A stretch of 53,934 nt of DNA from Lachnospiraceae bacterium. GTDB lineage: Bacteria > Bacillota > Clostridia > Lachnospirales > Lachnospiraceae. Shown in pieces: positions 26,844-44,945 of this stretch (position 1 is its first letter; every line of letters begins with the position of its first letter). The stretch spans positions 1 through 53,934 of the forward strand of contig JAFRGQ010000016.1 in assembly GCA_017433725.1 (NCBI GenBank), read 5' to 3'. Made by a program: the position numbers and the translations under genes. The notes beneath the pieces were generated by a model. It had not been told where the DNA came from, made no database searches, and saw only the letters and a program-made list of their open reading frames with translations.

Positions 26844-26908
26844 CTTCATCGCGCAATATTCGTGACGTAAGTCTATGATACGTGCGCAAGGTGACACTCG
26901 CCTTCATC
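26844..26908 (+). repeat. Dispersed 58-nt-spaced repeat, copy R4
   Basis: CTTCATC occurs at 26844 and again at 26902, exactly 58 bases apart, with CGCGCAATA, TCGTGACGT and GCGCAAGGTG between. The inverse complement closely matches the copies at 31044-31117 and 44878-44945, including ATCATAGA, ACGTCACGA and TTGCGCGATGAAG. It directly follows the T-rich side of hairpin copy E. Confidence 0.85.
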
Positions 26909-26966
26909 TCAGCTGCCGCATTTGCATCTGCGCAGAGTAACAAATCCTTTTATTTTTAAAATTATA

Positions 26967-26975
26967 TGGTAATAT
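26967..26975 (+). promoter_or_regulatory. Extended -10 promoter of the cysteine desulfurase gene
   Basis: TGGTAATAT fits TGn-TAATAT, with no convincing -35. Start is expected near 26982. Confidence 0.4.
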
Positions 26976-27050
26976 ATTCTTTGTGATTTCAGAAATGACA
27001 GAATGAAGAGAATATGTAAGCACTCAAAGAAAGAGGAATTGCCTACCCTT

Positions 27051-28208
27051 ATGAGAGAAATTTATTTTGACAATGCATCGACAACAATTGTTTCACCGGC
27101 TGCTGCGGAGACAGTGTTCCGCGTTATGCGGGAGGATTACGGAAATCCATCCTCCATGCATGCCAAGGGAGTCCGGGCCGAGAAATATGTGAAGGGAGCT
27201 GCGGAGACGATCGCAAAAATTCTGAAAGTCGCTCCGAACGAGATCTATTTCACATCCGGAGGAACGGAGGCAAATAACTGGGCTCTCATCGGAGGAGCCA
27301 GGGCTAACAAACGCGCCGGGAATAAAATCATCACGACTCAGATGGAGCATCCTGCTGTTTCGGAACCTCTTAAGATGTTGGAAAAGGAAGGGTTCGAGAT
27401 CGTCCGAATACCGGTAGACGAGAGTGGCAGGATTGACATGGGCATGCTCGAGAACGAACTGGATGAAAATGTCATCCTGATATCCATGATGTATGTCAAT
27501 AATGAGATCGGTGCGGTCACGCCTGTGGAGGAGATCGGCAGGCTCAAAAAGAGGAAAGCACCGGGTGCTCTGTATCATGTAGATGCAATCCAGGCTTTCG
27601 GAAAATACCGCATATTTCCACGCGAGGCCGGAATCGATATGCTCTCAGTGAGCGGTCATAAATTACACGGACCGAAGGGAACCGGATTTTTGTATAAGAG
27701 CGACAAAGCGAAAGTTCTGCCCCTCATTTATGGAGGAGGGCAGATGGCGTCGCTCAGGTCAGGCACTGAAAATGTACCCGGTATCGCGGGGCTCGGCGTC
27801 GCGGCGGCCGAGGCTTACACAGATTTTGATGAGAAAATCGCACACATAAGGACGTTGCGGAATCGCATGGTCGCCGGATTATCCGATATGGAGAATGTGG
27901 TGGTGCACGGGATGCCCGGAGAGGAGGGTGCTCCTCACATTGTAAATGCGGCCTTCATCGGCGTCGGCTCCGAGGTCCTGCTTCACACCCTGGAGGAGCG
28001 GGGAATCTATGTATCGGCAGGTTCCGCCTGCTCAACGCATAAGAGATCCGGGTCTCCGACGCTGACTGCGATCGGAGCTGCGAAGGAGGAGATGTCCTCA
28101 TCCGTCAGATTCAGTTTCTCGGAGCTGAATACAGAGGATGAAGTGGATGAGACCCTGAGGGTTCTTGAGGAGGTCCTTCCGATGTTGCGGCGATACAGGA
28201 GACGCTGA
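27051..28208 (+). CDS. iscS: Cysteine desulfurase (IscS/NifS-like)
   Basis: PLP enzyme that takes sulfur from cysteine as a persulfide and hands it to tRNA-thiolation or Fe-S assembly partners. It is 385 residues from 27051. MREIYFDNASTT is the family start. A frame opening at 27003 would add 16 basic residues but has no better binding site. The PLP lysine is K204 in SGHKLHGPKG, and the catalytic cysteine is C327 in SAGSACSTHK. Its long SACS-type loop places it near IscS/NifS. No IscU gene follows. The next gene, thiI, uses such a desulfurase for s4U formation, so this pair probably serves tRNA thiolation. Confidence 0.93.
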   Translation: MREIYFDNASTTIVSPAAAETVFRVMREDYGNPSSMHAKGVRAEKYVKGAAETIAKILKVAPNEIYFTSGGTEANNWALIGGARANKRAGNKIITTQMEHPAVSEPLKMLEKEGFEIVRIPVDESGRIDMGMLENELDENVILISMMYVNNEIGAVTPVEEIGRLKKRKAPGALYHVDAIQAFGKYRIFPREAGIDMLSVSGHKLHGPKGTGFLYKSDKAKVLPLIYGGGQMASLRSGTENVPGIAGLGVAAAEAYTDFDEKIAHIRTLRNRMVAGLSDMENVVVHGMPGEEGAPHIVNAAFIGVGSEVLLHTLEERGIYVSAGSACSTHKRSGSPTLTAIGAAKEEMSSSVRFSFSELNTEDEVDETLRVLEEVLPMLRRYRRR

Positions 28209-28233
28209 CCTGACGGGAATACGGCGGATCGCT

Positions 28234-28298
28234 GACGTGCGCAGTGGAAGGCGTTTACGCGCCGCGCACGTCGCGGCAAGAACGCCGAGGCGTTCTTG
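28234..28298 (+). repeat. Dispersed double-hairpin element, copy R5
   Basis: There are two hairpins side by side. GACGTGCGC (28234-28242) pairs with GCGCACGTC (28264-28272) around GGCGTTTACGC. CAAGAACGC (28277-28285) pairs with GCGTTCTTG (28290-28298) around CGAG. The sequence recurs with modest change at 32658-32716 and, inverted, at 44802-44832. Each copy follows a stop codon closely. No T-run is present. Confidence 0.85.
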
Positions 28299-28378
28299 AA
28301 TCTCAAATGCATGATCAAGCGCCTTCAGGTATCTGAAGAACGGGAAAAAGCAACACATTTTAATAGAAAGAGAGAACT

Positions 28379-29557
28379 ATGTACAATTCCTTCTTAATTA
28401 AGTATGGTGAGATTGGCCTTAAAGGCGACAACAGACACATTTTTGAAGATGCACTCGCAAAACGGATCCGGACGGTCCTCACGAGAATCGACGGAGATTT
28501 CGAGGTGAGAAAGACACGCGGACGAATTTATGTCTTCTGCAGCGGGGACTGGAATTTTGACGAGACGGTCGATCGCCTGTCACACGTGTTCGGTATTGTC
28601 GGGATCTGCCCGGTCGTTATCTACGACAGCTGCGACATTGAACAGCTCAGAGAGCATATGGTAGAGTACCTGAATGAGGAGCATCCGGACTGCACATCAA
28701 CCTTTAAGGTCAAAGCCCGCCGTGTGGACAAGGAATATCCGCTCACATCCATGGAGGTCGATGCGGAGCTCGGCGAGGCTATTCTCATGGCAAATCCGAA
28801 GATGAAGGTCGATGTTCACAATCCGGAAATCGTCTTTGACGTCGAGATCCGAGAAGAGATCTATATTTACTCAAAGGTGATTCCGGGTCCGGGCGGCATG
28901 CCGGTCGGAACTGCAGGGCGTGCCATGCTTCTTCTCTCCGGCGGCATCGATTCACCTGTCGCAGGCTGGATGGTAGCGAAGCGCGGCGTTACGATTGATG
29001 CGGTGTATTTCCATGCACCTCCGTACACATCGGATCGTGCAAAGCAGAAGGTTGTCGACCTTGCGAAAATCATTGCGCAGTACACCGGTCCGATTCGACT
29101 GCACATTGTAAATTTCACGGATATACAGCTATACATTTATGATCAGTGCCCGCACGAGGAACTCACGATCATCATGCGCCGCTATATGATGCGTATCGCG
29201 GAACATTTTGCTGCGGAGAACGGTGACATGGGTCTTGTCACCGGAGAAAGCATAGGTCAGGTCGCGAGCCAGACCATGCACAGCCTGCTCTGTACAAATG
29301 CAGTCTGCGAGTTACCGGTATATCGTCCGCTCATCGGATTTGATAAGAATGATATCGTAGATATCTCCCGCAGAATCGGTGCATACGATACGTCTATTCT
29401 GCCGTACGAGGATTGCTGCACGATTTTCGTGGCCAAGCATCCTGTTACGAAGCCTCAGCTCAAGATCATAGAGAGAAGTGAGACGAAATTGAAAGAGAAG
29501 ATAGAGGAGCTGATGGCGACGGCTATAGAGACGGCAGAACTTGTCATTGCAAAATAA
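28379..29557 (+). CDS. thiI: tRNA 4-thiouridine synthase ThiI
   Basis: Adenylates and thiolates U8 of tRNA to s4U, a near-UV sensor. It is 392 residues. An N-terminal ferredoxin-like part and THUMP domain (about 1-165) are followed by the PP-loop ATPase domain with SGGIDS at 187-192. The C-terminal rhodanese-like domain of the E. coli enzyme is absent, as in many Firmicutes. In such forms a dedicated desulfurase donates the sulfur directly, consistent with the cysteine desulfurase gene upstream. GAAAGAGAG precedes the ATG. Its 3' end faces truA across a bidirectional hairpin. Confidence 0.95.
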   Translation: MYNSFLIKYGEIGLKGDNRHIFEDALAKRIRTVLTRIDGDFEVRKTRGRIYVFCSGDWNFDETVDRLSHVFGIVGICPVVIYDSCDIEQLREHMVEYLNEEHPDCTSTFKVKARRVDKEYPLTSMEVDAELGEAILMANPKMKVDVHNPEIVFDVEIREEIYIYSKVIPGPGGMPVGTAGRAMLLLSGGIDSPVAGWMVAKRGVTIDAVYFHAPPYTSDRAKQKVVDLAKIIAQYTGPIRLHIVNFTDIQLYIYDQCPHEELTIIMRRYMMRIAEHFAAENGDMGLVTGESIGQVASQTMHSLLCTNAVCELPVYRPLIGFDKNDIVDISRRIGAYDTSILPYEDCCTIFVAKHPVTKPQLKIIERSETKLKEKIEELMATAIETAELVIAK

Positions 29558-29603
29558 TATCTGTATAAATATCAGATGACGCTGACAAAAATTTTGCTCA
29601 GGT

Positions 29604-29626
29604 CTCGCGAGTATTGCGCGATGAAG
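29604..29626 (-). repeat. Dispersed 58-nt-spaced repeat, truncated copy R3
   Basis: The last part of the element, TCGCGAGTATTGCGCGATGAAG on the plus strand, matches the end of the copies at 31044 and 44878. The other CTTCATC box is not found, so this is a partial copy. It stands one base before hairpin copy F, on the same side and in the same orientation as R2 and R4. Confidence 0.6.
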
Positions 29627-29627
29627 A

Positions 29628-29699
29628 AAAAAGGCTGCCGTATGAAGGAGCAACGCCACATTGTTTCGTGGAGGTACTGCTTCATACGGCAGCCTTTTT
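29628..29699. terminator. Bidirectional terminator between thiI and truA (family copy F)
   Basis: A perfect 20-bp inverted repeat joins 29628-29647 (AAAAAGGCTGCCGTATGAAG) with 29680-29699. CCAC and GTGG pair again inside. The A and T tracts on both ends make it work in both directions for the convergent genes. Confidence 0.95.
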
Positions 29700-29709
29700 A
29701 ATCTATAGC

Positions 29710-30462
29710 TTAATTATATTTTACTTCCATCAGCGTCAGCCCTCTCGCCGGAGCTGTGGGACCTGCAAGATTCCTGTCTTTCGCTTCCAGAAGCTCTTTC
29801 ATGGAGAACGGATCTCTTTTACCTTCTCCGACCTCGATCAATGTCCCGACCAGTATGCGGACCATGTATTGAAGGAAGCCTTCCCCGATGAATTCCAGAT
29901 CGATCTCATCCGGAGTCTCGATGATGTGGATGGCGTACAGCTTGCGTACTGTAGATTTCCTCATGCGCGGATTTCCGCAGAAGCTCCGGAAATCATGTTC
30001 ACCCCGGAGCTGGATTGTTGCCACTTTCATGGCGGCAGTGTCGAGGGTTCCTCTGTATTCATAGAGATATTTCCGGTCAAATACATGGTAGGATTTGTCC
30101 TTGCAGATTCTGTAAAGATAAGTCTTCTGCGAAGCATTGTAGCGGCTGTGGAATCGGGGAGCTGCGACGGCGACGGAAGTGACACCGATATCGTCCGGTA
30201 GATATTCGTTGAGATAATCACGAATCTCATCCGGCGTTTTATCGGTTTCCAACCGGAACTGCGCTACTTGTCCCCTGGCATGTACACCTGCATCTGTGCG
30301 GCCTGCCCCGTGGACATCCACAGGAGAGTCAGGGGAACCGTCGACCATGCGCGTGAGAATCGTCTCGAGCTTCTGCTGGATCGTGTTGTCGGTATCCCCC
30401 TGCTTCTGCCATCCGTTATAGCGGGTACCGTCATATTGTACAATCATTCGGTAGTTCGTCAT
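29710..30462 (-). CDS. truA: tRNA pseudouridine(38-40) synthase
   Basis: Forms pseudouridine at positions 38-40 of the tRNA anticodon arm. It is 250 residues, a normal size. The catalytic aspartate is D57 in GAGRTDAGVHA. The N terminus MTNYRMIVQYDGTRYNGWQ is the usual family start. Later conserved segments include YNASQKTYLYRI-type and HDFRSFCGN. AGAGGAA stands six bases before the ATG on the minus strand. It is downstream of a small membrane protein gene in the same direction, so they may share a transcript. Its terminator is hairpin copy F. Confidence 0.96.
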   Translation of the reverse strand: MTNYRMIVQYDGTRYNGWQKQGDTDNTIQQKLETILTRMVDGSPDSPVDVHGAGRTDAGVHARGQVAQFRLETDKTPDEIRDYLNEYLPDDIGVTSVAVAAPRFHSRYNASQKTYLYRICKDKSYHVFDRKYLYEYRGTLDTAAMKVATIQLRGEHDFRSFCGNPRMRKSTVRKLYAIHIIETPDEIDLEFIGEGFLQYMVRILVGTLIEVGEGKRDPFSMKELLEAKDRNLAGPTAPARGLTLMEVKYN

Positions 30463-30517
30463 GTATATTCCTCTTTACATGTACTTCCGTGCAGGCGTTT
30501 AGTCTGAACGATGTTCG

Positions 30518-30958
30518 TCAGTTTTTCGCTTCGGTATCCGATATATCTCCGGCTATAGTGGAATCACTGTAATTGGTGTATACTTCAGAGCCGGGCAGAT
30601 CATAACCTGATGTTCCGGAAGAAGCTGTGCTGTCGAAGGAACCTGTTATCGAAGTGGAAGTCTGCTCAGCGGCAACGGCAGCAGACTCTTCTTTATCTTT
30701 CTTCCGGCCCCATCTGGATTCTTTGGGTTCCTTTGGCTGTTTTGGCTCTTTCGGTTCCTTCTCGGCAGATTTCCTGAACGCGAAGGAGATCAGGAATCCC
30801 GTGAGAATCGGATTGAACATGAATACGCAGGCAAACAGCATGCGATATGTGAATAACATCTCCGCAAGGAACACCATGTACATGCCGATGACTGCAGCTG
30901 CGATACTGACTGCGATTGCCAGTATTGAAAGGAATACTTTCTGTAGAGTGAGTTTCAC
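30518..30958 (-). CDS. Small two-span membrane protein with Lys-Glu-Pro repeats
   Basis: Not recognised. Choosing GTG at 30958 gives 146 residues. AGGAGGTGAT, a full-length match to the 16S anti-Shine-Dalgarno, ends five bases before it. An ATG two codons upstream would lie too close to that site. Two membrane spans (about 8-30 and 36-58) are followed by a charged linker, KEPKEPKQPKEPKES, then a Lys-rich stretch. A Ser/Thr/Ala-rich tail makes up the last 60 residues. The tail contains no cysteine or obvious sorting motif. A divergent gene pair on the other side encodes an efflux operon. It may be co-transcribed with truA. Function unknown. Confidence 0.65.
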   Translation of the reverse strand: MKLTLQKVFLSILAIAVSIAAAVIGMYMVFLAEMLFTYRMLFACVFMFNPILTGFLISFAFRKSAEKEPKEPKQPKEPKESRWGRKKDKEESAAVAAEQTSTSITGSFDSTASSGTSGYDLPGSEVYTNYSDSTIAGDISDTEAKN

Positions 30959-31043
30959 GAGCATCACCTCCTGTTTTATACTACTTAAACTATAACATAA
31001 ATTAGAATAGGATGCGCATTTTTTTGCGCTTGCAAAGCAAATA

Positions 31044-31117
31044 TGCGCGATGAAGCCAGATTTCACTTTGCGCGCGTAACGCAGACTCACGTCACGAGTA
31101 TTGCGCGATGAAGAATA
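31044..31117 (-). repeat. Dispersed 58-nt-spaced repeat, copy R1
   Basis: On the plus strand TGCGCGATGAAG occurs at 31044-31055 and again at 31102-31113, exactly 58 bases apart. Between them are CAGATTTCACTTTGCGCGCG and ACTCACGTCACGAGTATT, shared with R2 and R4. Unlike the other copies it has no family hairpin next to it. It sits between the divergent membrane-protein and HlyD genes. Confidence 0.85.
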
Positions 31118-31162
31118 AAAACTCGAAATAATGATTAAGGACACAATGTGGTGACAGTTATC

Positions 31163-31171
31163 TGCTATAAT
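31163..31171 (+). promoter_or_regulatory. Extended -10 promoter of the efflux operon
   Basis: TGCTATAAT is a perfect extended -10. No clear -35 is seen. Start near 31178 leaves about 70 nt before the first ATG. Confidence 0.55.
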
Positions 31172-31250
31172 ACTCAGTTAAATACTGCCGGATATTGTGG
31201 TAGAATATTGGGGATCTTGATTGAACACAGATTTCCGAAGGGGGATTTTG

Positions 31251-32651
31251 ATGAATAACAGCGGATTTTCCGGAAAAAAGGCAGGCATCATTATAGCCGT
31301 GACCATCTGTGCGGTCATCGCCGTCTTTTTTCTGATTCGATACCTGAATGATACGTCCTATAAGGAGGATGATCAGGTAGTCTATGTGACGGATGTGGCA
31401 ACACTGACCGGGCAGAGTATCTCCGATGGAATTGTCAACCGTTACGGCGGGATCGTTGAATCACAGGAGACATGGAGCTGTACCGCCAACTCTGATTATA
31501 CGATTCAGGCTGTTCTTGTCGAAGTCGGTCAGGAGGTCACTGAGGGACAGGCCCTGTTTGTCTACGATGTTAATACTCTTGAAAATACTCTTGAGCAGCA
31601 GAAGATAGACCTTGAGCGTCTTAATGCGGAACTCGAAAGTCTCAAAGATACCATTGCAGCGCTCGAAAAGGAAGCAAAATCTGCAGACAAATCGCTGAGA
31701 GCCAATTACACGATCCAGATCAAACAACAGGAGCTCGAGAGAAAGCAGAAAGAATACGATATCCAGTCCAAGCAGAAAGAAATAGAGCTCACGGAAAAGA
31801 ACATAGCCAATTCAACGGTCACGAGCCAGATCTCCGGAGTCGTCCAGTCCATACGGGATTCCGAGACGCAGGCTAGCGATTACAATTCCGGAGACACTTC
31901 CTTTATTAAGATCATAAAAACCGGTGAACTCCGTGTAAAGGGTACAGTTAATGAGCAGAATATCGGAATGCTGACGGAGGGTATGCCTGTCATCGTGAGA
32001 AGCCGTGTCGACGATACACAGATCTGGAGAGGTACTATTTCCAAGATCGACAGGGAGAACCAACAGACGAATAAGTATGCGGATATGTACGGAACCGATA
32101 ACGGGTCCGGAACAAACTATCCGTTTTACGTAGATCTTCCTACAAGTGAAGGCCTCATGATGGGTCAGCATGTTTATCTCGAGCCGGATCTCGGTCAGGA
32201 AGATACAGGGACGGCGGAAGGAATCTGGCTTGATGAGTGGTATGTCGATGAGAGTGATGAAAACGCCCCGTTCGTATGGGTCGATGACGGGGAAGGGAAG
32301 CTTGTAAAGCGCGATGTCATAATCGGCGAGCGCGACACTGAGATGGGGACCCTGCAGATTCTGTCGGGTCTTGAACTGACCGATCTCATCGCCTTTCCGG
32401 ATGTGAATTGTTCGGAAGGAGCTAAGACAGAGAAGGCTGAATACACGACCGGCGGTGCGGACGGAGGTTACACCGGCGAGGAAGAGGGCTACGTTCCATC
32501 AGAAGACTACACAGGTCAGGGAGAGGATTACGTTCCATCAGAAGACTACACAGGTCAGGGAGAGGGTTATGCTCCGGTAGAAGGCGGTCCTGAGGAAAAC
32601 TTTATGGGAACAGAGGTCATGAATTCGGGTATGGCAACGGACGCTGCCTGA
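31251..32651 (+). CDS. HlyD/MacA-like efflux adaptor, first copy
   Basis: Membrane-anchored adaptor of a MacAB/YknXYZ-type exporter, 466 residues. An N-terminal span (about 8-30) leads to a lipoyl-like half (WSCTANSDYTIQAVLVEVGQ), then a coiled-coil hairpin at about 105-190 rich in Glu, Lys and Leu. The second lipoyl half and a beta-barrel with TGELRVKGTVNEQNIG follow. The C-terminal tail is low complexity and holds a 13-residue tandem repeat, YVPSEDYTGQGED, encoded by two 39-base copies near 32490-32567. AAGGGGG precedes the ATG at 31251; the longer TTG frame at 31221 is rejected. It is the first gene of a four-gene operon that encodes a second adaptor. Confidence 0.85.
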   Translation: MNNSGFSGKKAGIIIAVTICAVIAVFFLIRYLNDTSYKEDDQVVYVTDVATLTGQSISDGIVNRYGGIVESQETWSCTANSDYTIQAVLVEVGQEVTEGQALFVYDVNTLENTLEQQKIDLERLNAELESLKDTIAALEKEAKSADKSLRANYTIQIKQQELERKQKEYDIQSKQKEIELTEKNIANSTVTSQISGVVQSIRDSETQASDYNSGDTSFIKIIKTGELRVKGTVNEQNIGMLTEGMPVIVRSRVDDTQIWRGTISKIDRENQQTNKYADMYGTDNGSGTNYPFYVDLPTSEGLMMGQHVYLEPDLGQEDTGTAEGIWLDEWYVDESDENAPFVWVDDGEGKLVKRDVIIGERDTEMGTLQILSGLELTDLIAFPDVNCSEGAKTEKAEYTTGGADGGYTGEEEGYVPSEDYTGQGEDYVPSEDYTGQGEGYAPVEGGPEENFMGTEVMNSGMATDAA

Positions 32652-32657
32652 GGGTGA

Positions 32658-32716
32658 GCTCTGCGGAGGGCGCTTACGCGCTGTGTACGTCACTGCAAGA
32701 ACGTCGAGACGTTCTT
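32658..32716 (+). repeat. Dispersed double-hairpin element, copy R6
   Basis: GCGGAGGGCGCTTACGCGC and ACGTCACTGCAAGAACGT match copy R5 closely. AAGAACGT (32697-32704) pairs with ACGTTCTT (32709-32716) around CGAG, with compensating C-to-T and G-to-A changes relative to R5. It starts seven bases after the adaptor stop and lies inside the operon, before the ATPase gene. Confidence 0.85.
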
Positions 32717-32809
32717 TATATGTGAGACGAAAGAACAGCAGGAAATCCTTATAATACAGTGTGAGACGTCCATCGCCTCTATAGGCAGTGACGGTAAAAC
32801 GAGGCATGT

Positions 32810-33475
32810 ATGATAATAGAATGCAGGCACATCTATAAAACTTATAAGACCGGTCGGATTGAATTTCCGGCACTCAAGGATATCAATCTCGAAGTGGAAG
32901 AAGGGGATTACCTTGCAGTCATGGGGCCTTCGGGGTCGGGTAAATCGACCCTGATGAACCTCATCGGGTGTCTCGATGTTCCGACGGAGGGCACTCTCCT
33001 TCTTGATGGGGAAGATGTCGGAAAATGCAGCGAGGATCGCATGTCAGATATTCGCCTTTACAAATTAGGATTCGTCTTTCAGACTTTTCATCTTCTACCT
33101 CATCAGACCGCACTTGAAAATGTCGAACTTCCGCTGACATATGCACATGTTCCGAGAGCAGCCAGGCGGGAAAAGGCTATGAAGGCTCTGGAAAGGGTAG
33201 ATCTTGCGACGCATTGGGACCACCTTCCGACGGAGCTGTCCGGCGGTCAGAAGCAGAGAGTCGCGATCGCGAGAGCAGTTATCAATGAACCGAAGATCCT
33301 TCTGGCAGATGAGCCGACCGGTGCGCTGGATTCCGCATCGGGGGAGAGGATCATGGAAATTTTCAAAGAACTTAACCGGAGCGGCGTCACAGTAATCATG
33401 ATAACACATGACCGCGATATCGCCGCCCACGCTGAGCGTGTCGTGGAAATACGCGACGGAGTACTTAAATGTTGA
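32810..33475 (+). CDS. ABC transporter ATPase, MacB/LolD/YknY type
   Basis: Cytoplasmic ATPase that powers the exporter or efflux pump encoded by the neighbouring genes. It is 221 residues. Walker A is GPSGSGKS near 43-50, Q-loop QTFHLLPH, signature LSGGQKQR, Walker B LLADEPTGALD, and the H-loop MITHDRD. The sequence falls in the MacB/LolD class, which works by mechanotransmission with FtsX-type permeases. GAGG lies before the ATG. Its 3' end overlaps the second adaptor by seven bases, so translation is coupled. Confidence 0.93.
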   Translation: MIIECRHIYKTYKTGRIEFPALKDINLEVEEGDYLAVMGPSGSGKSTLMNLIGCLDVPTEGTLLLDGEDVGKCSEDRMSDIRLYKLGFVFQTFHLLPHQTALENVELPLTYAHVPRAARREKAMKALERVDLATHWDHLPTELSGGQKQRVAIARAVINEPKILLADEPTGALDSASGERIMEIFKELNRSGVTVIMITHDRDIAAHAERVVEIRDGVLKC

Positions 33476-35703: not shown

Positions 35704-35715
35704 CGGGAGGTTATG

Positions 35716-36963: not shown

Positions 36964-37030
36964 AAGATTTCGACTGAGATTTCAGGACTCGTATGATAGT
37001 CCCGGTGCGGGATTTAGGGCCGGCTGAGAT

Positions 37031-37065
37031 AAAAAAGAAGGAGCTGTCACAAGTGGGACAGCTCC
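37031..37065 (-). terminator. Terminator of the HPr-like gene (family copy G)
   Basis: GGAGCTGTC (37040-37048) pairs with GACAGCTCC (37057-37065) around an eight-base loop. On the minus strand the stem is followed by CTTCTTTTTT. This is the shortest of the eight related hairpins and lies between convergent genes. Confidence 0.88.
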
Positions 37066-37107
37066 GATAATAAACGCTATTCTGATATTTCTGTCGCAGG
37101 ACAGAAG

Positions 37108-37341: not shown

Positions 37342-37482
37342 AGGTATGGAATCCTCCTTCATTGTCAGTAGAATACACTGTTGACTCAATAATAGAGTGA
37401 ATCATCAGACAAGTCAAGTGAAAAGCATCCGGTATTCATTACGTTTTTTTTAAGCACACATTTCTTGAGTTTGGAGATAAAG

Positions 37483-38862
37483 ATGGGTAAGAAAGCAGCA
37501 TTCCACAGTCTGGGATGCAAGGTAAATTCATATGAGACTGACGCTATGCGCCAGAGCCTTATGGCGGCAGGATATGAGGAAGCACCGTTCGCACCGGGAG
37601 CTGACGTATATGTGATCAATACATGTACCGTGACGAATGTCGCGGATCGCAAGTCGAGGCAGATGCTTCACAGGGCGAAAGAGATGAACCCGGATGCGGT
37701 TGTAGTTGCGGCAGGATGCTATGTGCACGATTCGGGTGACCGTCTGAAGAAGGATCCCGCAGTTGACATTATTGTCGGAAACCATGAAAAAGGAAAACTT
37801 GCGGATATTCTTGAAAATTATTTTAGCAATCTCGAACAGTCCAAAGGAATCTCTGTTACGGATATCAATACCGTCAGGGATTACGATGAGCTTGCATTTG
37901 TGCCGGTGGGAGAGCATACGCGGGCATTTGTCAAAATACAGGACGGATGCAACCAGTTTTGTTCCTATTGTATGATACCCTATGTGCGGGGGCGCGTACG
38001 AAGCCGAAGAATGGAGGAGATTCTGAGAGAAGTCCGGGAACTCTCACAGAGAGGGTACCGTGAGGTGGTCCTTACAGGGATCCACATCAGTTCCTACGGG
38101 CTTGATTTTGATTATCCCGGAACCAACAGGCAGACGCCGGATGCATCCTGTGCTGAGACGAACAGACACATGACGAATCTTATTGAACAGATGTCCCGGA
38201 TACCGGGCATTGACAGGATCAGACTGGGATCTCTCGAGCCCGGTATCATTACGGAGGAGTTTGTCCGTAAGATTTCTTCCATCCCGGAATTTTGTCCGTC
38301 TTTTCATCTCTCCATGCAGAGCGGATGTGACGCGACGCTTGCAAGGATGAAGAGAAAGTACAGGAGTGCCGATTTTGCGGAAAAGGTCGACCTTATCAGG
38401 AGGTATTTTGACAACCCGGCAATCACGACGGACATCATTGCGGGATTTCCCGGTGAGACGGAGGATGAATTTGCCGCTACTCTGGAATTTGTCAAAAGCA
38501 TCCGTTTTTCAAGAACGCATATTTTTAAGTATTCTGTGCGTCAGGGTACCGTAGCGGCAAGAATGCCGGATCAGGTACCGGAGAAGAAAAAGCAGGCAAG
38601 ATCCGCCGAGCTGCTCGCAATCGATAAGACGGCGAGAGAAGACTATGCGCGCGGTTTCCTGAACTGTCCGGTCTCCGTTCTCTTTGAGGAGAGAATCGTA
38701 CATGATGGAGAAAAGTATATGAAGGGATACACAAGAGAGTACATTCCGGTCCTTTTGTACACGGAGGATGATCTTTCGAACCGGATCCTGGAAGTGATCC
38801 CGGAAAATGTGACAGCGCAGGGAGAGCTGGTTTCGACCGCAGTATGCGGCATTTGCAAATGA
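37483..38862 (+). CDS. mtaB: tRNA t6A37 methylthiotransferase MtaB
   Basis: Radical SAM enzyme that adds a methylthio group to t6A37 in tRNAs reading ANN codons. It is 459 residues. The N-terminal UPF0004 domain has cluster ligands C12, C48 and C79 (GCKVNSYE, NTCTVT, AGCY). The radical SAM cysteines are C156, C160 and C163 (CNQFCSYC). A C-terminal TRAM-like domain follows. The MiaB/RimO relatives have different N-terminal motifs; GCKVN-Y is typical of MtaB. The start at 37483 follows TTTGGAG; a TTG frame at 37465 is less likely. No terminator is visible before ireB. Confidence 0.9.
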   Translation: MGKKAAFHSLGCKVNSYETDAMRQSLMAAGYEEAPFAPGADVYVINTCTVTNVADRKSRQMLHRAKEMNPDAVVVAAGCYVHDSGDRLKKDPAVDIIVGNHEKGKLADILENYFSNLEQSKGISVTDINTVRDYDELAFVPVGEHTRAFVKIQDGCNQFCSYCMIPYVRGRVRSRRMEEILREVRELSQRGYREVVLTGIHISSYGLDFDYPGTNRQTPDASCAETNRHMTNLIEQMSRIPGIDRIRLGSLEPGIITEEFVRKISSIPEFCPSFHLSMQSGCDATLARMKRKYRSADFAEKVDLIRRYFDNPAITTDIIAGFPGETEDEFAATLEFVKSIRFSRTHIFKYSVRQGTVAARMPDQVPEKKKQARSAELLAIDKTAREDYARGFLNCPVSVLFEERIVHDGEKYMKGYTREYIPVLLYTEDDLSNRILEVIPENVTAQGELVSTAVCGICK

Positions 38863-38866
38863 TTGC

Positions 38867-38895
38867 TTTACTAATATCTGAATTAAGTGTAAAAT
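38867..38895 (+). promoter_or_regulatory. Candidate promoter upstream of ireB
   Basis: TTTACT, 17 bases, then TAAAAT, just after mtaB. The leader contains a hairpin, GCGGA (38915-38919) with TCCGC (38925-38929), directly before GGGAGGAG. Confidence 0.4.
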
Positions 38896-38956
38896 GTTCA
38901 TAAGTATGTAATCTGCGGAGCTAATCCGCGGGAGGAGATGTAAGAGAGGTTACGTT

Positions 38957-39232
38957 ATGGCAGATTTGGGAAACACGCAATATTGGAAAGTGAAATCCGG
39001 ACCGGAAATTCACGTCAAGGATGTACTGAATGTGGTTTATAACGCAATGGCGGAAAAAGGCTACAACCCGGTCAATCAGATCGTGGGCTACATCATGTCC
39101 GGAGATCCTACTTATATCACAAGTTATAAGAATGCAAGAAGCATGATCATGAAAGTTGAACGCGATGAGCTCGTGGAAGAACTTCTGAGAGCATATATCA
39201 GGAACCGTTCATGGGAGGATCCCGAGAACTGA
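38957..39232 (+). CDS. ireB: IreB family regulatory protein (DUF965)
   Basis: Small regulator of 91 residues. In Enterococcus the homolog is a substrate of the Ser/Thr kinase IreK and affects cephalosporin resistance. The family core VLNVVYNAMAEKGYNPVNQI and the ending RNRSWEDPEN are intact. In Enterococcus phosphorylation occurs on N-terminal threonines; here T7 in GNTQYW is the obvious candidate. The stop overlaps the ruvX start as TGATG. This ireB-ruvX-DUF1292 run is conserved in Firmicutes. Confidence 0.92.
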   Translation: MADLGNTQYWKVKSGPEIHVKDVLNVVYNAMAEKGYNPVNQIVGYIMSGDPTYITSYKNARSMIMKVERDELVEELLRAYIRNRSWEDPEN

Positions 39233-39675
39233 TGAGGATTCTGGGACTTGATTACGGATCAAAGACAGTCGGCGTGGCTGTCTCTGATATGTTGGGAATG
39301 ACCGCGCAGAGACTTGAAATTATCAGACGTCCGAAGGAAAACCACCTGCGGCGAACATTCCGGAGAATAGAGGAACTTGCAAAAGAGTACGAGATAGAGT
39401 CGGTCGTGCTCGGCTATCCTCTGAATATGGATGATTCTGTCGGGGACAGGGCGGAAAAAACTCTTGCTTTCAAAAGAGAACTTGAGGAACGTCTGAATGT
39501 CCCTGTTTTTCTTGTGGATGAGAGACTTACGACAGTCGAAGCGGATGAGATCATGGCGGAGTGCGGGATTCCACGAAGCGATTTCGGACTTTATGTGGAT
39601 ATGATCGCAGCGGAAATCATTTTGCAGGATTATCTTAATAATATGATGAGTACAGTGCCGAAAGTATCATTCTGA
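39232..39675 (+). CDS. ruvX: RuvX/YqgF putative Holliday junction resolvase
   Basis: RNase H-fold nuclease, implicated in 16S rRNA 5' maturation and proposed as a Holliday junction resolvase. It has 147 residues. Conserved motifs are LDYGSKTVGVAVSD at the N terminus, LGYPLNMD, and LVDERLTTVEA near 100, with acidic catalytic residues D at each. The ATG at 39232 overlaps the last base of the ireB stop, so translation is coupled. The longer frame from 39211 is not used. An 11-bp hairpin starts at its stop codon. Confidence 0.9.
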   Translation: MRILGLDYGSKTVGVAVSDMLGMTAQRLEIIRRPKENHLRRTFRRIEELAKEYEIESVVLGYPLNMDDSVGDRAEKTLAFKRELEERLNVPVFLVDERLTTVEADEIMAECGIPRSDFGLYVDMIAAEIILQDYLNNMMSTVPKVSF

Positions 39676-39709
39676 CACCGAGCTCGCTCGAGTAGGGAGA
39701 ATGATACTT
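39662..39709 (+). other. Hairpin over the ruvX stop codon; gap 39676-39970
   Basis: AAGTATCATTC (39662-39672) pairs perfectly with GAATGATACTT (39699-39709). The first arm covers the last ruvX codons, and no T-run follows. The rest of the 295-base gap to the DUF1292 gene holds no gene I can support. It has a 17-codon TTG frame at 39708 that I do not call. In many Firmicutes a fur-family gene sits here; none is present. Confidence 0.55.
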
Positions 39710-39970
39710 GGCGCACGCTCTACATGAGCAAGAAGTGAAGGAGGGACCCCACGAATTGTAAATGTAGACAGGATTGCGGGAGTGCGCAAGCTTTATGGTC
39801 GGGACGGAAGATAAGATTCGTAATGGTTCCTGTGGCAGCGAAAGGGGTAAATCGTTGCAACAGGATACAGTATGAATGATCTCGACCGGATATAAGGCAG
39901 ATAAAAGAAATCTGAGGAACGTGAGACAGCAGATTCTTATTCTTGAACTTTGAGTCTGACCGGAGGAAGT

Positions 39971-40237
39971 ATGAAAGTCGAATCAATTACATTTAAAGAT
40001 GAAAGCAACAATGATCACGAATTTTACGTCGTTGAGCAGACGCGTGTGAACGGGACCAATTACCTTCTGGTTGCAGATGCACCGGAAGGAGACGCGGAAG
40101 CTCTGATACTGAAAGATATTTCCGATGAGAGCTCCGGGGAGGCGGAGTATGTCCCTGTGGAGGACGAAGCGCTGCTCGAGGCTCTGATGAAAGTATTTTC
40201 GGAACTGTTGGAGGACGACGTGGAGATTCAACTTTGA
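39971..40237 (+). CDS. DUF1292 protein (YrzB-like)
   Basis: An 88-residue acidic protein of the DUF1292 family. It has an N-terminal beta-rich part with HEFYVVEQTRVNGTNYLLVA and a Glu/Asp-rich C-terminal helix. CCGGAGGAAG precedes the ATG at 39971, whereas the longer frame starting at 39950 has no site. Function is unknown in the family. It is usually linked to ruvX and ireB, as here. It ends 18 bases before rnj. Confidence 0.88.
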   Translation: MKVESITFKDESNNDHEFYVVEQTRVNGTNYLLVADAPEGDAEALILKDISDESSGEAEYVPVEDEALLEALMKVFSELLEDDVEIQL

Positions 40238-40255
40238 ACGAAACGGAGGAAATAC

Positions 40256-41989
40256 TTGATTAATCAGGACAACAGAATAGACGCCGTGAAGACCCGGGAC
40301 GCGGCAGGACAGAACGATCGTGAGCGTGTCATCGGGGAGAAACTTAAGATTATTCCGCTCGGAGGCCTTGAAAGAATCGGAATGAATATCACAGCTTTCG
40401 AGTACGGAGACAGTATCGTAGTAGTCGACTGCGGGATGGCCTTCCCCGAGGACGACATGCTTGGTATAGATTTCGTTCTTCCGGATACGACCTATCTGGA
40501 AGAGAACTACAGTAAGGTCAAAGGTTTCGTTATCACACACGGGCATGAGGATCATATAGGCGGGATTCCGTATGTATTCCGCAAGATTAATGTGCCTGTT
40601 TACACGACAAAGCTCACCATGGCTCTGATCGAAAATAAGCTTGAAGAGCATAATATGCTCCAGACTGTACCCCGCAAAGTCGTAGAGTTTGGGGATACGA
40701 TTGATTTTGGAGAAATCCAGGTCGAATTCATCAAGACGAACCATTCTATTCAGGATGCAGCGGCGCTTGCCATCTATACGCCGGGCGGAACGGTGGTTCA
40801 TACCGGCGACTTTAAGGTGGATTACACGCCGGTGTTCGGCGACGCTATAGACTTGCCGCGCTTTGCGGAGATCGGGCGCCAGGGCGTGCTTGCGTTATTG
40901 TGTGATTCTACAAATGCCGAGCGGCCGGGACACACTATGTCCGAGAAGACGGTCGGAGCGACATTTGACAGGATTTTTTCCGAGTACGGAAAGTCCAGGC
41001 TGATCATCGCGACATTTGCCTCAAATATCGACAGAGTGCAGCAGATCATCAATTCCGCCTCAAAATACGGACGGAAGGTCTGCCTGGAAGGACGCTCTAT
41101 GGTGAACGTCATCGGAACCGCTATAAAAATCGGTTATGTTGACGTACCCGACGGTACGCTGATCACATTGGATGAGCTTCATCATTATCCGCCGGAAAAG
41201 ACCGTTCTTGTGACGACCGGAAGCCAGGGTGAATCTATGGCGGCTCTGTCGCGCATGGCGGCAAATCTTCATAAGAAAGTCAAGATCATGCCCGGCGATG
41301 TGATCGTATTCTCTTCTCATCCCATACCGGGAAATGAGAAGGCAGTATCGAATGTCATAAACGAACTGGCAGAGATCGGAGCAACCGTGCTTTTCGAGGA
41401 TGCACATGTCTCCGGACATGCCTGCCAGGAAGATATCAAGCTGATTTATTCATTGGTACAGCCGAAATATGCAATTCCCGTTCATGGGGAGATGCGCCAT
41501 CTCAGGGCGCAGGCTGCGGTCGCTGAGTCGCTTGGTATCCCGAAAGATAATATTTTTATTCTACATTCCGGAGATGTTCTCGAAATCAGCGAGGAAAAAG
41601 CCAAGATTATCGGTAAAGTACAGACCGGTACAATCCTGGTTGACGGCTTGGGTGTGGGTGACGTCGGCAATATAGTCATCAGAGACAGACAGCGTCTGTC
41701 CGAGGACGGTATTATTGTGGTAGTGCTCACTCTCGAGCAGTATACGAACCGCCTGCTGGCGGGACCTGACCTGGTCTCCAGAGGATTTGTCTATGTCAGA
41801 GAATCGGAGGATCTTCTGGAAGAGGCGACCAGAACAGTGGAAGATGCTGTCTGGAGATGTCTTGACCGAAAGGTGACAGACTGGTCAAAAATCAAAACGG
41901 AAATAAAGGATGATCTCAGCGGATTTGTATGGAGACGGACGCAGAGAAGACCGATGATCTTACCGATCATAATGGAGGCCTGCCCGTGA
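40256..41989 (+). CDS. rnj: Ribonuclease J
   Basis: 5'-3' exonuclease and endonuclease of the RNA degradosome, a metallo-beta-lactamase/beta-CASP enzyme. It is 577 residues. The metal-binding motif THGHEDH gives H95, H97, D99 and H100. The beta-CASP segment includes FASNIDRVQQII and the RPGHTMSEK-type serine loop. The start is TTG at 40256, five bases after GGAGG; no ATG has a comparable site. A C-terminal domain of about 100 residues ends RRPMILPIIMEA. It clusters with small regulators as in other Lachnospiraceae. Confidence 0.95.
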   Translation: MINQDNRIDAVKTRDAAGQNDRERVIGEKLKIIPLGGLERIGMNITAFEYGDSIVVVDCGMAFPEDDMLGIDFVLPDTTYLEENYSKVKGFVITHGHEDHIGGIPYVFRKINVPVYTTKLTMALIENKLEEHNMLQTVPRKVVEFGDTIDFGEIQVEFIKTNHSIQDAAALAIYTPGGTVVHTGDFKVDYTPVFGDAIDLPRFAEIGRQGVLALLCDSTNAERPGHTMSEKTVGATFDRIFSEYGKSRLIIATFASNIDRVQQIINSASKYGRKVCLEGRSMVNVIGTAIKIGYVDVPDGTLITLDELHHYPPEKTVLVTTGSQGESMAALSRMAANLHKKVKIMPGDVIVFSSHPIPGNEKAVSNVINELAEIGATVLFEDAHVSGHACQEDIKLIYSLVQPKYAIPVHGEMRHLRAQAAVAESLGIPKDNIFILHSGDVLEISEEKAKIIGKVQTGTILVDGLGVGDVGNIVIRDRQRLSEDGIIVVVLTLEQYTNRLLAGPDLVSRGFVYVRESEDLLEEATRTVEDAVWRCLDRKVTDWSKIKTEIKDDLSGFVWRRTQRRPMILPIIMEACP

Positions 41990-42020
41990 CCATCCGCTTT
42001 GAGATTGGAGGACGGTTAAC

Positions 42021-42359
42021 ATGAGTAGCATTCAGAAAAGCACCGAGGAACTGATAGAATGTGTCAAAAGCGGAGCGACGTACAAACGGTACAGAAAGTG
42101 CGAAAAGGCTCTGAAAAAGTATCCGGGGCTCTCAGATAAGCTGAATAAACTGAGAGGAGACATCTATCGGCTCTACGACGGATCAGATAGTGAAGAGCTT
42201 CTGAAGAATACCGAGGAGCTGCAGAAAATGTATCAGGAGATGCACAAGATACCTGAAGTGAACGCGTATCTTGAGGCGGAGACCGAATTATGTATGCAGG
42301 TCAGGAATATTTATCGACGGCTCGTGCGTGAAGTCGGAATCGAACCGCCCGAAATGTGA
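42021..42359 (+). CDS. YlbF/YmcA family regulator of RNA processing
   Basis: Mostly helical protein of 112 residues, related to YlbF and YmcA of B. subtilis, which join a complex that adjusts RNase Y activity. The YEMH-type core MYQEMHKIPEVNAYLEAE is characteristic. GGAGGACGG is upstream, 31 bases after rnj. Being next to RNase J fits a role in RNA turnover, though that is context only. Its stop lies 20 bases before the next gene's start. Confidence 0.85.
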   Translation: MSSIQKSTEELIECVKSGATYKRYRKCEKALKKYPGLSDKLNKLRGDIYRLYDGSDSEELLKNTEELQKMYQEMHKIPEVNAYLEAETELCMQVRNIYRRLVREVGIEPPEM

Positions 42360-42379
42360 CGGAGCTGAAAGAGGAGTGT

Positions 42380-42829
42380 ATGGCAAATAAAAAGAAAAAC
42401 GATGTCACATACATTGTGACGGTAATGGGTGCACGGGGGATTATCAAGCTTCTTCTTATCGTGCTTGTCATAATCTTCTTTATCTTCCTGGCGAGGACTT
42501 CCTATAAGTTCGGGTATGCTATCTTTAATGAGAGGCCCATGAACGCGGAGACGCCGACGGAGATATTGGTGGAGATTCCGAAAGATGCCTCTACGCTGGA
42601 GATCGCGACCATTCTCGAGAATAACGGTCTTATCGAGAATCGGTTCATTTTCCTCCTGCAGGAGAGATTCTCCGCTCACCATGGGAATCTTCAGCCCGGT
42701 AAGTATTACATGAATACCGGGCAGACAGCTTCACAGCTGCTGAAGATCCTGGCAAGAGTGGATACTGAAAATCAGCCCGAGCAGGAGGATGAGAGCACTG
42801 AAACTGATTCGTCAGCGGCAGGTGGATGA
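42380..42829 (+). CDS. MltG-like membrane protein, short form without catalytic domain
   Basis: A 149-residue protein with one membrane span (about 26-46) followed by the YceG/MltG N-terminal fold. This part includes VEIPKDASTLEIATILENNG and LQPGKYYMNTGQTASQLLKIL. Full MltG has about 330-390 residues with the transglycosylase domain and its catalytic glutamate after this region. Both are absent here, and a Glu/Ser-rich tail follows instead. Either a short LysM-like paralog or a truncated ancestor is possible. GAGGAG precedes the ATG at 42380. In Bacillus yrrL (mltG) precedes yrrM-yrrN-yrrO, the same order as here, so it is probably an old, reduced member. Confidence 0.75.
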   Translation: MANKKKNDVTYIVTVMGARGIIKLLLIVLVIIFFIFLARTSYKFGYAIFNERPMNAETPTEILVEIPKDASTLEIATILENNGLIENRFIFLLQERFSAHHGNLQPGKYYMNTGQTASQLLKILARVDTENQPEQEDESTETDSSAAGG

Positions 42830-42856
42830 AACATTTGTAAGTTTTGGAAGGATAGT

Positions 42857-43495
42857 ATGACAGAAGCGGAGAGAATGAGAATCTTTCTCGCATCGCTGGA
42901 TACAGGAAATTCGGAGTTCCTTGACGAGCTGGAAAAGCAGGCCCGGCAGCAGTATGTTCCGATTATCCGACATGAGACGCAGAGCGTACTCAGAGTTCTT
43001 CTTACACAGACAAGACCCGCGGAAATTCTGGAGGTAGGAACTGCCATCGGATTTTCCGCGATTCTTATGTGTGAAAATTCGGAAGCGCATATCACAACGA
43101 TCGAGAATTATGAAAAGCGAATAGAACCGGCGCGCGACAATTTCAGAAAGGCCGGGGTGGCTGACCGAGTCGATCTGATATTCGGAGATGCGACAGAGGT
43201 CTTGCCGATCCTTGACGGACCGTACGATTTTGTCTTTATGGACGCCGCGAAAGGCCAGTATATCCGTTTTCTGCCGGATGTGCTCAGAGTGCTGCGACCG
43301 GGAGGAATGCTCGTATCAGACAATGTCCTGCAGGAGGGTGATATTCTCGAATCACATTATGCGGTCGAGCGAAGGAACCGGACGATTTATAAGCGCATGC
43401 GGGAGTACCTGTATGAGTTGACACACAGAGAGGATCTTGTTACGACGATTTTGCCGATAGGAGATGGGCTGGCGCTTACGGTGAAGAAAGTATGA
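42857..43495 (+). CDS. trmR: O-methyltransferase TrmR-like
   Basis: Class I SAM-dependent O-methyltransferase of 212 residues. The SAM motif is ILEVGTAIGFSAI near 58, and metal-binding DAAKGQY is near 132. Family members include YrrM/TrmR, which methylates 5-hydroxyuridine at position 34 of tRNA. The assignment rests on gene order: the next gene is a U32 protein of the kind that makes that 5-hydroxyuridine. Catechol O-methyltransferase-like activity cannot be excluded from sequence. The ATG lies 27 bases after the previous gene, with a weak GGAAGG site. Confidence 0.8.
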   Translation: MTEAERMRIFLASLDTGNSEFLDELEKQARQQYVPIIRHETQSVLRVLLTQTRPAEILEVGTAIGFSAILMCENSEAHITTIENYEKRIEPARDNFRKAGVADRVDLIFGDATEVLPILDGPYDFVFMDAAKGQYIRFLPDVLRVLRPGGMLVSDNVLQEGDILESHYAVERRNRTIYKRMREYLYELTHREDLVTTILPIGDGLALTVKKV

Positions 43496-43572
43496 GAGAT
43501 TGCGTAATCGATTTTTGGTGACTTTATCATCATTTAAAAAAAGATACCAGTTGGTAATGACAGGAGTGGCAT

Positions 43573-44796
43573 ATGAGAAAACCGGAACTTCTTCTGCCGG
43601 GAGGCAGTCTGGATGTTTTAAAAGTGGCGGTGCTCTACGGAGCGGATGCCGTTTATATCGGAGGGGAAGCGTTTGGCCTCAGGGCGAAAGCGAAGAATTT
43701 TACCCGTGCGGAGATGGAGGAGGGCATTGCCTTTGCCCACGAGCACGGGGCAAAAGTGTACGTGACTGCCAATATATTTGCTCATGACGCAGATCTTGAG
43801 GGGGCGGCCGCGTACTTCAGAGAGCTGTCTGAAATCAGGCCGGATGCGGTCCTTGTCGCGGATCCCGGTATGTTTATGATAGCGAAGCGCAATGCCCCGA
43901 ATCTGGAATTGCATATCAGTACGCAGGCCAATAACACAAACTATGAGACCTGTCTCTTCTGGCACGAGCTCGGGGCAAAACGCATCGTCACAGCGCGGGA
44001 GCTTTCTTTGAGGGAAATCAAAGATATCCGTGAACATATTCCGGACGACCTCGAGATAGAGTCGTTCGTCCACGGTGCAATGTGTATCTCCTATTCAGGC
44101 AGGTGCCTTCTGTCCAGTTATCTGGCGGGGCGGGATGCCAACAGAGGACTCTGTACACATCCATGCCGCTGGAAATATGCGGTGATGGAGGAGACAAGGC
44201 CCGGCGAGTACATGCCGATTGAGGAGAATGAGAGGGGAACGTTCATTTTCAATTCAAAGGATTTGTGTATGATTGAGCACCTGCCTGACCTCTACGAAGC
44301 CGGAATAGACAGCTTTAAGATCGAGGGACGGATGAAGACAGCGCTCTATGTGGCAACAGCTGCCAGAACATACCGGCTTGCGATGGATGCATATGAGCGG
44401 GATCCGAAAGAGTACGAGGAGAAGCTTCCGTGGTTCCGTGAACAGATTGCGGATTGTACGTATCGCAAGTTCACGACGGGTTTCTTTTACGGGAGACCGG
44501 ATCAGGAAGACCAGATATATGACAACAACACGTATGTTAATAATTATTCGTTCCTTGGAATTGTGAGAGAAATTGACGGGAACGGGGATGCGGTCACAGA
44601 GCAGAAGAACAAATTCTGTGTCGGAGATACGATTGAGATCATGAAACCGGACGGGCGCAATGTGATTACAAAGGTGCTTGCGCTGCATGACGGGGAGGGT
44701 CAGTCGATGGAATCTGCACCTCATCCGAAACAGGAGCTGCATATCCGCCTTGAGGCGGAGGCGGAGCCGTGGGATATCCTCCGGCGGGCGAACTGA
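43573..44796 (+). CDS. trhP: U32 family protein, tRNA 5-hydroxyuridine synthesis (TrhP-like)
   Basis: Iron-sulfur protein of 407 residues, annotated as peptidase U32 but known in Bacillus and E. coli to be needed for prephenate-dependent hydroxylation of U34 in tRNA. The U32 signature ESFVHGAMCISYSGRC and the following NRGLCTHPCRW segment carry the conserved cysteines for the cluster. GAVYIGGE-like and STQANNTN motifs are in the N-terminal half. AGGAGTGG precedes the ATG. B. subtilis has two adjacent copies (yrrN, yrrO); only one is here. The paired methyltransferase directly upstream would finish 5-methoxyuridine. Confidence 0.87.
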   Translation: MRKPELLLPGGSLDVLKVAVLYGADAVYIGGEAFGLRAKAKNFTRAEMEEGIAFAHEHGAKVYVTANIFAHDADLEGAAAYFRELSEIRPDAVLVADPGMFMIAKRNAPNLELHISTQANNTNYETCLFWHELGAKRIVTARELSLREIKDIREHIPDDLEIESFVHGAMCISYSGRCLLSSYLAGRDANRGLCTHPCRWKYAVMEETRPGEYMPIEENERGTFIFNSKDLCMIEHLPDLYEAGIDSFKIEGRMKTALYVATAARTYRLAMDAYERDPKEYEEKLPWFREQIADCTYRKFTTGFFYGRPDQEDQIYDNNTYVNNYSFLGIVREIDGNGDAVTEQKNKFCVGDTIEIMKPDGRNVITKVLALHDGEGQSMESAPHPKQELHIRLEAEAEPWDILRRAN

Positions 44797-44801
44797 GCCG
44801 G

Positions 44802-44832
44802 AGAACGCTTCGGTGTTCCTTCCACGACGTGC
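44802..44832 (-). repeat. Dispersed double-hairpin element, inverted copy R7
   Basis: The reverse complement contains CGTCGTGGAAGGAACACCG and GAAGCGTTCT, matching the hairpin half of R5. GAACGC pairs with GTGTTC around TTCG. It starts six bases after the U32 stop, as the other two copies follow their stops, but is in the opposite orientation. Confidence 0.65.
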
Positions 44833-44877
44833 CCGCATGTTTCAACCATGGTCTCGAGCATCGCGTGATTGTACTCA

Positions 44878-44945
44878 CGATGAAGCTGGATTTCACTTTG
44901 TGCGCGTATCATAGATTCACGTCACGAGCATTGTGCGATGAAAAA
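44878..44945 (-). repeat. Dispersed 58-nt-spaced repeat, copy R2
   Basis: On the plus strand CGATGAAG at 44878 and CGATGAAA at 44936 are exactly 58 bases apart. The stretch between has CTGGATTTCACTTTGTGCGC, ATCATAGATTC and ACGTCACGAGCATT, matching R1 and R4. Hairpin copy H begins four bases later. The 303-base gap 44797-45099 is filled by R7, this repeat and copy H. Confidence 0.85.

Follow-up and report, generated by a model that had tools for sequence, protein, structure and literature searches.

In the window, by which we mean the whole stretch of 53,934 nucleotides analysed here, a dispersed repeat is represented by four copies or stubs of its left end and by two clear pieces of its right end. 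The first left-end copy (26843..26908, plus strand) carries both of its boxes, A and A', and misses its right end; it was read in place as well as found by profile. It sits between ORF 25152-26654 and ORF 27003-28208, which we take from their sequences to be guaB-like and cysteine-desulfurase-like, respectively. The TTTAT immediately before it (26838..26842, plus strand) flanks its left end and, judging from sites elsewhere, would be the host target. A right-end module with helices IV and V, ending in CTTGAA and missing its left end, follows at 28220..28300 on the plus strand. On the minus strand, a left-end stub (29604..29627, profile E 0.001) comes directly after an intrinsic-terminator-like hairpin (29633-29694), and a further left-end copy with boxes A and A' (31046..31114, read in place and by profile) is flanked by a TTTAT target at 31115..31119 on the same strand. 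A degenerate right-end module lies at 32658..32716 (plus strand), just past the stop of ORF 31221-32651. The last left-end copy (44859..44943, minus strand) again follows a terminator-like hairpin, its first box has degenerated to TTTCATC, and a weak profile match (E 0.007) at 44802..44835, also on the minus strand, is a degenerate remnant of its right end. The profile, built from 16 full main-type copies, gave 9 rows in the window at E <= 1, two of them weak opposite-strand matches overlying two other rows, and 0 in the reversed window.

The initial annotation had described three of these copies and a truncated fourth as an intergenic repeat with two CTTCATC boxes. Its coordinates and strands are borne out by our reading, with profile edges slightly shifted; its list was correct for the three copies and the stub, and missed the two right-end pieces (28220-28300 and 32658-32716). 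The proposed spacing of exactly 58 nt between the boxes is true of two window copies and fails for the third, because the first box of that copy is TTTCATC. Exact box pairs at 58 nt are indeed unexpected by chance: the window has 2, whereas 500 shufflings of its 10-base blocks gave 0.004 on average and never more than 1. Among 71 main-type copies examined in the window's genome, 53 have an exact first box and 22 of these an exact second box as well, at a spacing of 56 nt in one, 57 nt in two, 58 nt in eight and 59 nt in eleven. Selection on a two-box unit, which had been suggested from the exact spacing, is thus unsupported, since the spacing varies between 56 and 59 nt and both boxes form part of the left end of something bigger. 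The bigger unit is a mobile element of 180-235 bp, whose left end contains the two boxes as box A and a direct repeat of it, A'; the copies in the window are decayed insertions of this element.

The full element and its distribution

A full main-type element runs from TCTTCATCGCG to CGTTCTTGAA and measures about 180 bp, or about 226 bp when a middle module (GCCTCAGCTACACAATGC...) is present. It starts with TC, a feature present in the subfamilies, and ends with CTTGAA, or with CTTGAT in a sibling subfamily. The left end consists, in this order, of box A, a putative 4-nt guide, a TnpA-type hairpin (CTCGTGACTTYAGTCGTGAG), A', box B, a target-complementary stretch and GCCTCCGGC; box B is an inverted copy of box A. 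The right end is helix IV with an AGTGGAA bulge, followed by the terminal helix V. Box A reads TCTCTGACGC in the sibling subfamily. A third type, TCAGCTGGG, comes from genome G191 (one contig, 25 terminal-hairpin matches), and a fourth, TCTTCAACACAG, was seen once (L199, position 2331). Across genera the right end is kept and the left end changes. Partial copies are common, either truncated on the 3' side at many points or reduced to the right end only. Tandem copies also occur: in L110 a right end joins a left end as TTGAA followed by TCTTCATC, and L026 has an extra 59-nt left-end unit in tandem compared with L182.

A genome-wide search, which the initial annotation had proposed as a check, confirms a dispersed family. 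Genome G000, from which the window comes (2.66 Mb in 98 contigs, 77% complete), has the left-end pattern at 73 places with at most 3 mismatches, the right-end piece at 54, the box-B region at 33 and the terminal hairpin at 83; each reversed pattern gave 0. The left end was found in 7 of 41 relatives, all within the genus, with counts of 66 in G000, 73 in G226, 10 each in G210 and G223, 5 in G208 and 1 each in G222 and G229. A sample of 200 genomes of the family contains the left-end pattern in 2 and the terminal-hairpin pattern in 10 (G000 being in both), and some of the distant terminal-hairpin matches, for example L208 and L214, have no helix IV. A pattern scan of named genomes, which may omit records of the window's own genome, returned 47 stretches, every one from a MAG with Lachnospiraceae or Clostridiales in its title (8 MAGs by our count of titles). 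The G191-type sequence, the only type queried against these records, matched two phage records, over 53 bases in one and 24 bases in the other, and 0 plasmid records; an exact-pattern scan of viral contigs returned one G191-type copy. We found no earlier description of the element in Rfam or in the (mainly open-access) literature, including that on Lachnospiraceae dispersed repeats and rumen IS200 MITEs.

The copies are mostly intergenic, as had been noted for the window: an ORF of at least 120 aa spans 6 of 61 copies, compared with 154 of 213 positions drawn at random from the loci that hold them (the copy count covers 61 of the 71 main-type copies, the remaining 10 lying too close to a locus end). 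A recent spread of the family, also suggested at the outset, is supported by the dozens of copies, the near-identity of the full ones and the sites without the element in a near relative.

Insertion sites and target complementarity

We compared 29 locus pairs with relatives in three sets (7 + 7 + 15), most of them with G226, which matching coordinates identify as RUG12161. The element is absent from the relative in 5 pairs. Three of these empty sites are base-clean apart from point differences (L123/L182, L018/L289 and L079/L287), and two show small differences in the flank: the relative has CTTAC in place of TTTAT in L041/L285, and TTCTAT plus 9 extra nt in L060/L282. The insertion point lies 3' of TTTAT in the main type and 3' of TTAA in the sibling type, the two subfamilies that the presence/absence sites cover, with neither duplication nor loss of the target. 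For instance, one site reads TTCAGAGTTTTAT, element, aCCCTGATG, and in the relative TTCAGAGTTTTAT is followed directly by GCCCTGATG; a sibling site reads GGGATTAA, element, TGTTAGG, against GGGGTTAA and TGTTAGG. Any single empty site fits equally well a gain by insertion in G000 and a precise loss from the relative. The copy is common to both genomes, wholly or partly, in 15 pairs, and 7 pairs are rearranged or unclear (L008, L004, L025, L010, L026 position 315 and both L037 copies); as for further pairs, L114 is rearranged and the L085 pair did not cover the element.

The 5' flanks are fixed and the 3' flanks mixed. The last three positions of the 5' flank are TAT in all 19 full main copies, at least 17 of which have the whole TTTAT; the flank ends in TTAA in 5 full siblings and in TATA in 11 G191-type copies, the G191-type and L199-type targets being read from flanks alone. 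Over all loci, a flank ending in TTAT precedes 92 of 132 main copies and one ending in TTAA 9 of 12 siblings, counts in which the 144 copies do not equal 144 independent events, because the set includes closely related genomes.

For IS608, a target-guide pair TTAC/AAAG is printed in the excerpted text of PMC5934647. Our guide test reads target and guide in the same direction, which simplifies that printed pair, and under this reading the expected guide is AATA in the main type and AATT in the sibling type. The 4 nt preceding the hairpin match the target at all four positions in 85 of the 132 main copies and in 9 of the 12 siblings; when the guides are swapped, a full match is seen for one of the 132 main targets and none of the 12 sibling targets. 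No such match was found in G191-type or L199-type copies. A resident IS605 in G025 apparently has the same relation, TTTAA with AATT, at 3 sites.

A second complementarity lies further inside. The 4-6 nt between box B and the invariant GCCTCCGGC (the B-extension) are ATAAAA in the main type, TTAAAA in the sibling, TATA in the G191-type and TTGA in the L199-type; in all four, this is the reverse complement of the end of the subfamily's own target. Pairing with the target extends over at least 5 contiguous positions in 23 of the 41 main copies with a recognisable box B, over two to four in 6, and over none or one in 12, which we attribute to decay and 3' truncation. At least 4 contiguous pairs are present in 5/5 sibling, 13/13 G191-type and 1/1 L199-type copies. 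The excerpted IS608 study places the nucleotides 3' of the left hairpin near the target; they have been engineered to lengthen pairing upstream of the target and are normally buried by a second hairpin (PMC5934647).

In our element, A' and B form a hairpin, and B can alternatively pair with A plus the target. It seems reasonable to speculate that the A'-B hairpin would keep a second guide hidden until B pairs with A or with the target, and switching of this kind would explain why A and A', the two boxes first noticed, are direct repeats. We tentatively propose, at less than even chances in our opinion, a re-addressed single-strand transposon with subfamily-specific antiparallel guides (for TTTTAT, TTTTAA, TATA and TTCAA) masked by A'-B, which would have undergone reprogramming at least three times, with a single right end retained throughout. 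It is also conceivable, if rather unlikely, that the B-extension matches the target merely as a relic without targeting role, left over from an inverted duplication that took in one ancestral flank and gave rise to the left end. That box B is an inverted copy of A and that the complementarity ends at the invariant GCC would both fit such an origin. However, there are four subfamilies, each with its own target and a matching extension, and this counts against a relic because a relic need not match new landing sites.

Folding, terminal hairpins and candidate transposases

The element folds strongly (z-scores of -7.2 and -10.4). The initial annotation had looked to compensating changes as support for a family, and these are present between subfamilies, in the right-end helices (compensated at 10 of 18 pairs in 22 sequences from several genera) and in hairpin IIa, where both sides changed at 5 of 8 pairs among 34 main-type left ends. 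They are not a feature of the A'-B helix, whose covariation among main-type copies is no higher than in shuffles (210/500), and changes in helix I are mostly one-sided: in the same 34 left ends, both sides changed at 4 of 17 pairs and one side only at 10. Helix I and IIa together do exceed shuffles (covariation score 0.109 against 0.090, 0/500), a significance that is overstated because main-type sequences are related. Within one subfamily, then, the stems show mostly decay and not compensation. Wholesale change between subfamilies together with largely one-sided decay among copies is what the evolution of a mobile element would give.

The left end has a relative among known transposons. An IS605 with tnpA and tnpB in RUG006 (L297) has a left-end hairpin CTCGTGACTTTAGTCGTGAG within its closing stem and a right-end hairpin CACGCGACTTTAGTCGTGTG, and the element carries the RUG006-type hairpin core 16 nt from its insertion point. 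This left hairpin is kept before tnpA fragments in G217 and G228, has diverged in G226 and G223, and was not seen in the stretch before the tnpA fragment of G214. Close relatives of the RUG006 tnpA (at least 58% identity, mostly short fragments) occur together with the element in G226 and G223, and without a left-end match at up to 2 mismatches in G228, G217 and G214; G000, G208, G210, G222 and G229 have the left end and no close tnpA match. Presence of this tnpA thus follows the element counts within the genus only partly and in poor agreement, in a comparison limited by incomplete assemblies.

The right end resembles none of the IS605 right ends examined: hairpin V does not match CACGCGACTTTAGTCGTGTG, and no right-end guide is visible. 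In the loci examined, no transposase of the element's own was found between its two ends; what lies there is a nested IS200, stretches free of ORFs, or ORFs between apparently separate copies. A Y1 gene inside the element in L238 was rejected as its own transposase because it belongs to the nested IS200, and one beside the right end in L207 because the gene there is an IS605 tnpA, into whose 3' end the element has inserted. The Y1 genes of G000 are partial only and lie at contig ends. In G191, with its 25 right-hairpin matches, two Y1 proteins were found at E <= 0.001; both are presumably REP-type, and the terminal hairpin was not found in their two loci (L247 and L256). An origin from TnpB or its omega-RNA was rejected, as the PF07282 model matches 0 times in G000, G223, G025 and G010; elsewhere, it gave one match below the cut-off in G226 and three in G191, two of which lie downstream of a resolvase-like gene, the arrangement found in IS607 elements (the third is L296). 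With origin and terminus placed from the GC skew of 20 sampled stretches, 15 of the 20 listed G191 copies (out of 25) lie on the lagging-strand template (p 0.04), the target motif itself being near 50%; in the longer loci elsewhere, local GC skew puts 26 of 51 copies there.

Interpretation and relation to known systems

We consider it probable that this is a miniature, gene-less element which behaves like the 'peel and paste' transposons of IS200/IS605 and which a Y1 (HUH) TnpA most likely mobilises in trans. The data demonstrate its ends, its duplication-free presence and absence 3' of TTTAT or TTAA, the identity of its hairpin with the left-end hairpin of an IS605 in the same genus, and the co-variation of target and putative guide between subfamilies. 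On this basis, TnpA would excise and insert the element as a single strand, the target would pair with the guide or guides during insertion, and TnpA is predicted to act on the element in trans. The changing left end with a kept right end is the reverse of what one would expect if one TnpA bound both ends. Given the right end, the lack of a gene-bearing partner in the loci examined and the mixed strand bias, we state the class as IS200/IS605-like and non-autonomous, membership being unproven.

A different HUH system, either a REP-type TnpA or a rolling-circle enzyme like those of IS91 and Helitrons, might mobilise the element instead, which we regard as improbable. A 5' TC and a 3' terminal hairpin make Helitron-like ends, and the subfamilies have both, without target duplication; moreover, the only Y1 matches in the one-contig G191 are the two that look REP-type. 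On the contrary, those two loci (in G191 only) are without the terminal hairpin, and the target-guide relation and the IS605 left-end hairpin favour IS200/IS605. Slightly less probable still, in our opinion, is an RNA-borne element whose transcript folds, whose B-extension pairs with the 5' flank in an intron-like manner, and which a reverse transcriptase copies into DNA. The strong fold, the compensated helices IV and V and the target complementarity of the B-extension would all suit it, and one distant terminal hairpin (L214) has an ORF for a maturase-like reverse transcriptase about 1 kb away. However, that hairpin lacks helix IV and its neighbour is a single case, the left-end hairpin belongs to a DNA transposon, and no intron or other Rfam family reaches the gathering score over the element. 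The few overlapping Rfam matches are far below it, intron families gave no match in 12 loci (7 at E <= 1, 5 at E <= 5), and the sole match above threshold, a TPP riboswitch, is outside the element.

Least probable, and very unlikely, we find a host regulatory or structural RNA, or a terminator-associated element, under selection. Its mostly intergenic copies, strong fold and some covariation among main-type copies could be read in this way. Moreover, 38 of the 71 copies are flanked by TTTAT, and a strong hairpin adjoins the target in 9 of these 38; among the window's control TTTAT sites, 13 of 146 have such a hairpin (p 0.02). Yet this terminator measure is weak, hairpin energies overall being alike in copies and control sites (p 0.32), and the empty sites in a near relative, truncation at many points, the mostly one-sided changes in helix I and the A'-B helix without covariation all speak against it. 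On balance, decaying copies of a mobile element fit better than a host RNA under selection.

The likeness of our IS200/IS605-like element to IS608, as far as the excerpted account goes, extends to insertion exactly 3' of a short target retained in the left flank, to a putative guide tetranucleotide 5' of a subterminal hairpin, and to a second left-end hairpin 3' of the first (PMC5934647). Unlike IS608, it is without tnpA and tnpB, and its right-end hairpin differs from the left. Its second complementarity 3' of the hairpin is natural and includes the target, whereas that described for IS608 was engineered and lies upstream of the target (PMC5934647, same excerpt). The RUG006 IS605 shares the left-end hairpin CTCGTGACTTTAGTCGTGAG but carries both genes and the right-end hairpin CACGCGACTTTAGTCGTGTG. 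Another comparison is the short PATE-like IS605 element of Halanaerobium, one sequence of ~271 nt with palindromic ends only; such ends-only elements are often moved by a trans-acting transposase, according to the excerpt of PMC7290912. The Halanaerobium element has the ends of a resident IS, whereas here there are dozens of copies and a right end without a known IS owner. With REP and REPIN sequences, as portrayed in excerpts of PMC3116915 and PMC8266576, the element shares palindromy, lack of autonomy and high copy number. It differs in being a unit of 180-235 bp with directional ends, and in that the two REP-type loci checked, both in G191, are without copies. REP-type loci are here understood by the general criteria for REP tags.

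It looks as if the element travels with its own address label, a short sequence able to base-pair with the spot of insertion. If this is true, the four subfamilies would be a natural data set linking an internal guide to the insertion site, and would test whether single-strand transposons gain new addresses through a few nucleotide changes; they would also offer small donor ends for programmable insertion. A re-addressed transposon would then be a natural counterpart of the longer target pairing that was engineered in IS608. There is also a caution in it, namely that structured intergenic repeats in these Lachnospiraceae genomes are not necessarily regulatory RNAs.

Element copies within reading frames

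One IS605 tnpA gene of genome G025 (loci L207/L261, contig C65) holds in its 3' end an inserted copy of the G191-type element, the relative with the TATA target, and it is this copy that supplies the tnpA ORF with a new C-terminus. Because a second pair of matches like this tnpA and its element is present on contig C67, the composite may have been duplicated to a second place. On a viral contig (L291, near 2945-3830), a predicted response-regulator-like ORF encloses a G191-type copy, which partly encodes its N-terminus.

Neighbours of divergent sequences

At L210 (G058) a TPP riboswitch (1885-1987, Rfam score 64.8) is located upstream of an ORF that we take to be thiS-like, and a divergent element lies between the two. 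At L214 (G175) the ORF at 2483-3025 is a maturase-like reverse transcriptase, with a divergent terminal hairpin about 1 kb away.

Interrupted and perhaps longer copies

The left and right ends are separated by 588 bp at L112 and by 462 bp at L343, with no ORF of 90 codons in between at either locus; these are perhaps longer gene-less forms of the element. A different middle module is present too, at L269. At L238 (G205, contig C341, 780-1860) a full element copy is interrupted by a nested IS200-type tnpA element; the nested element lies on the opposite strand and has TTTTAT on its 5' side, a target that it shares with the main subfamily.
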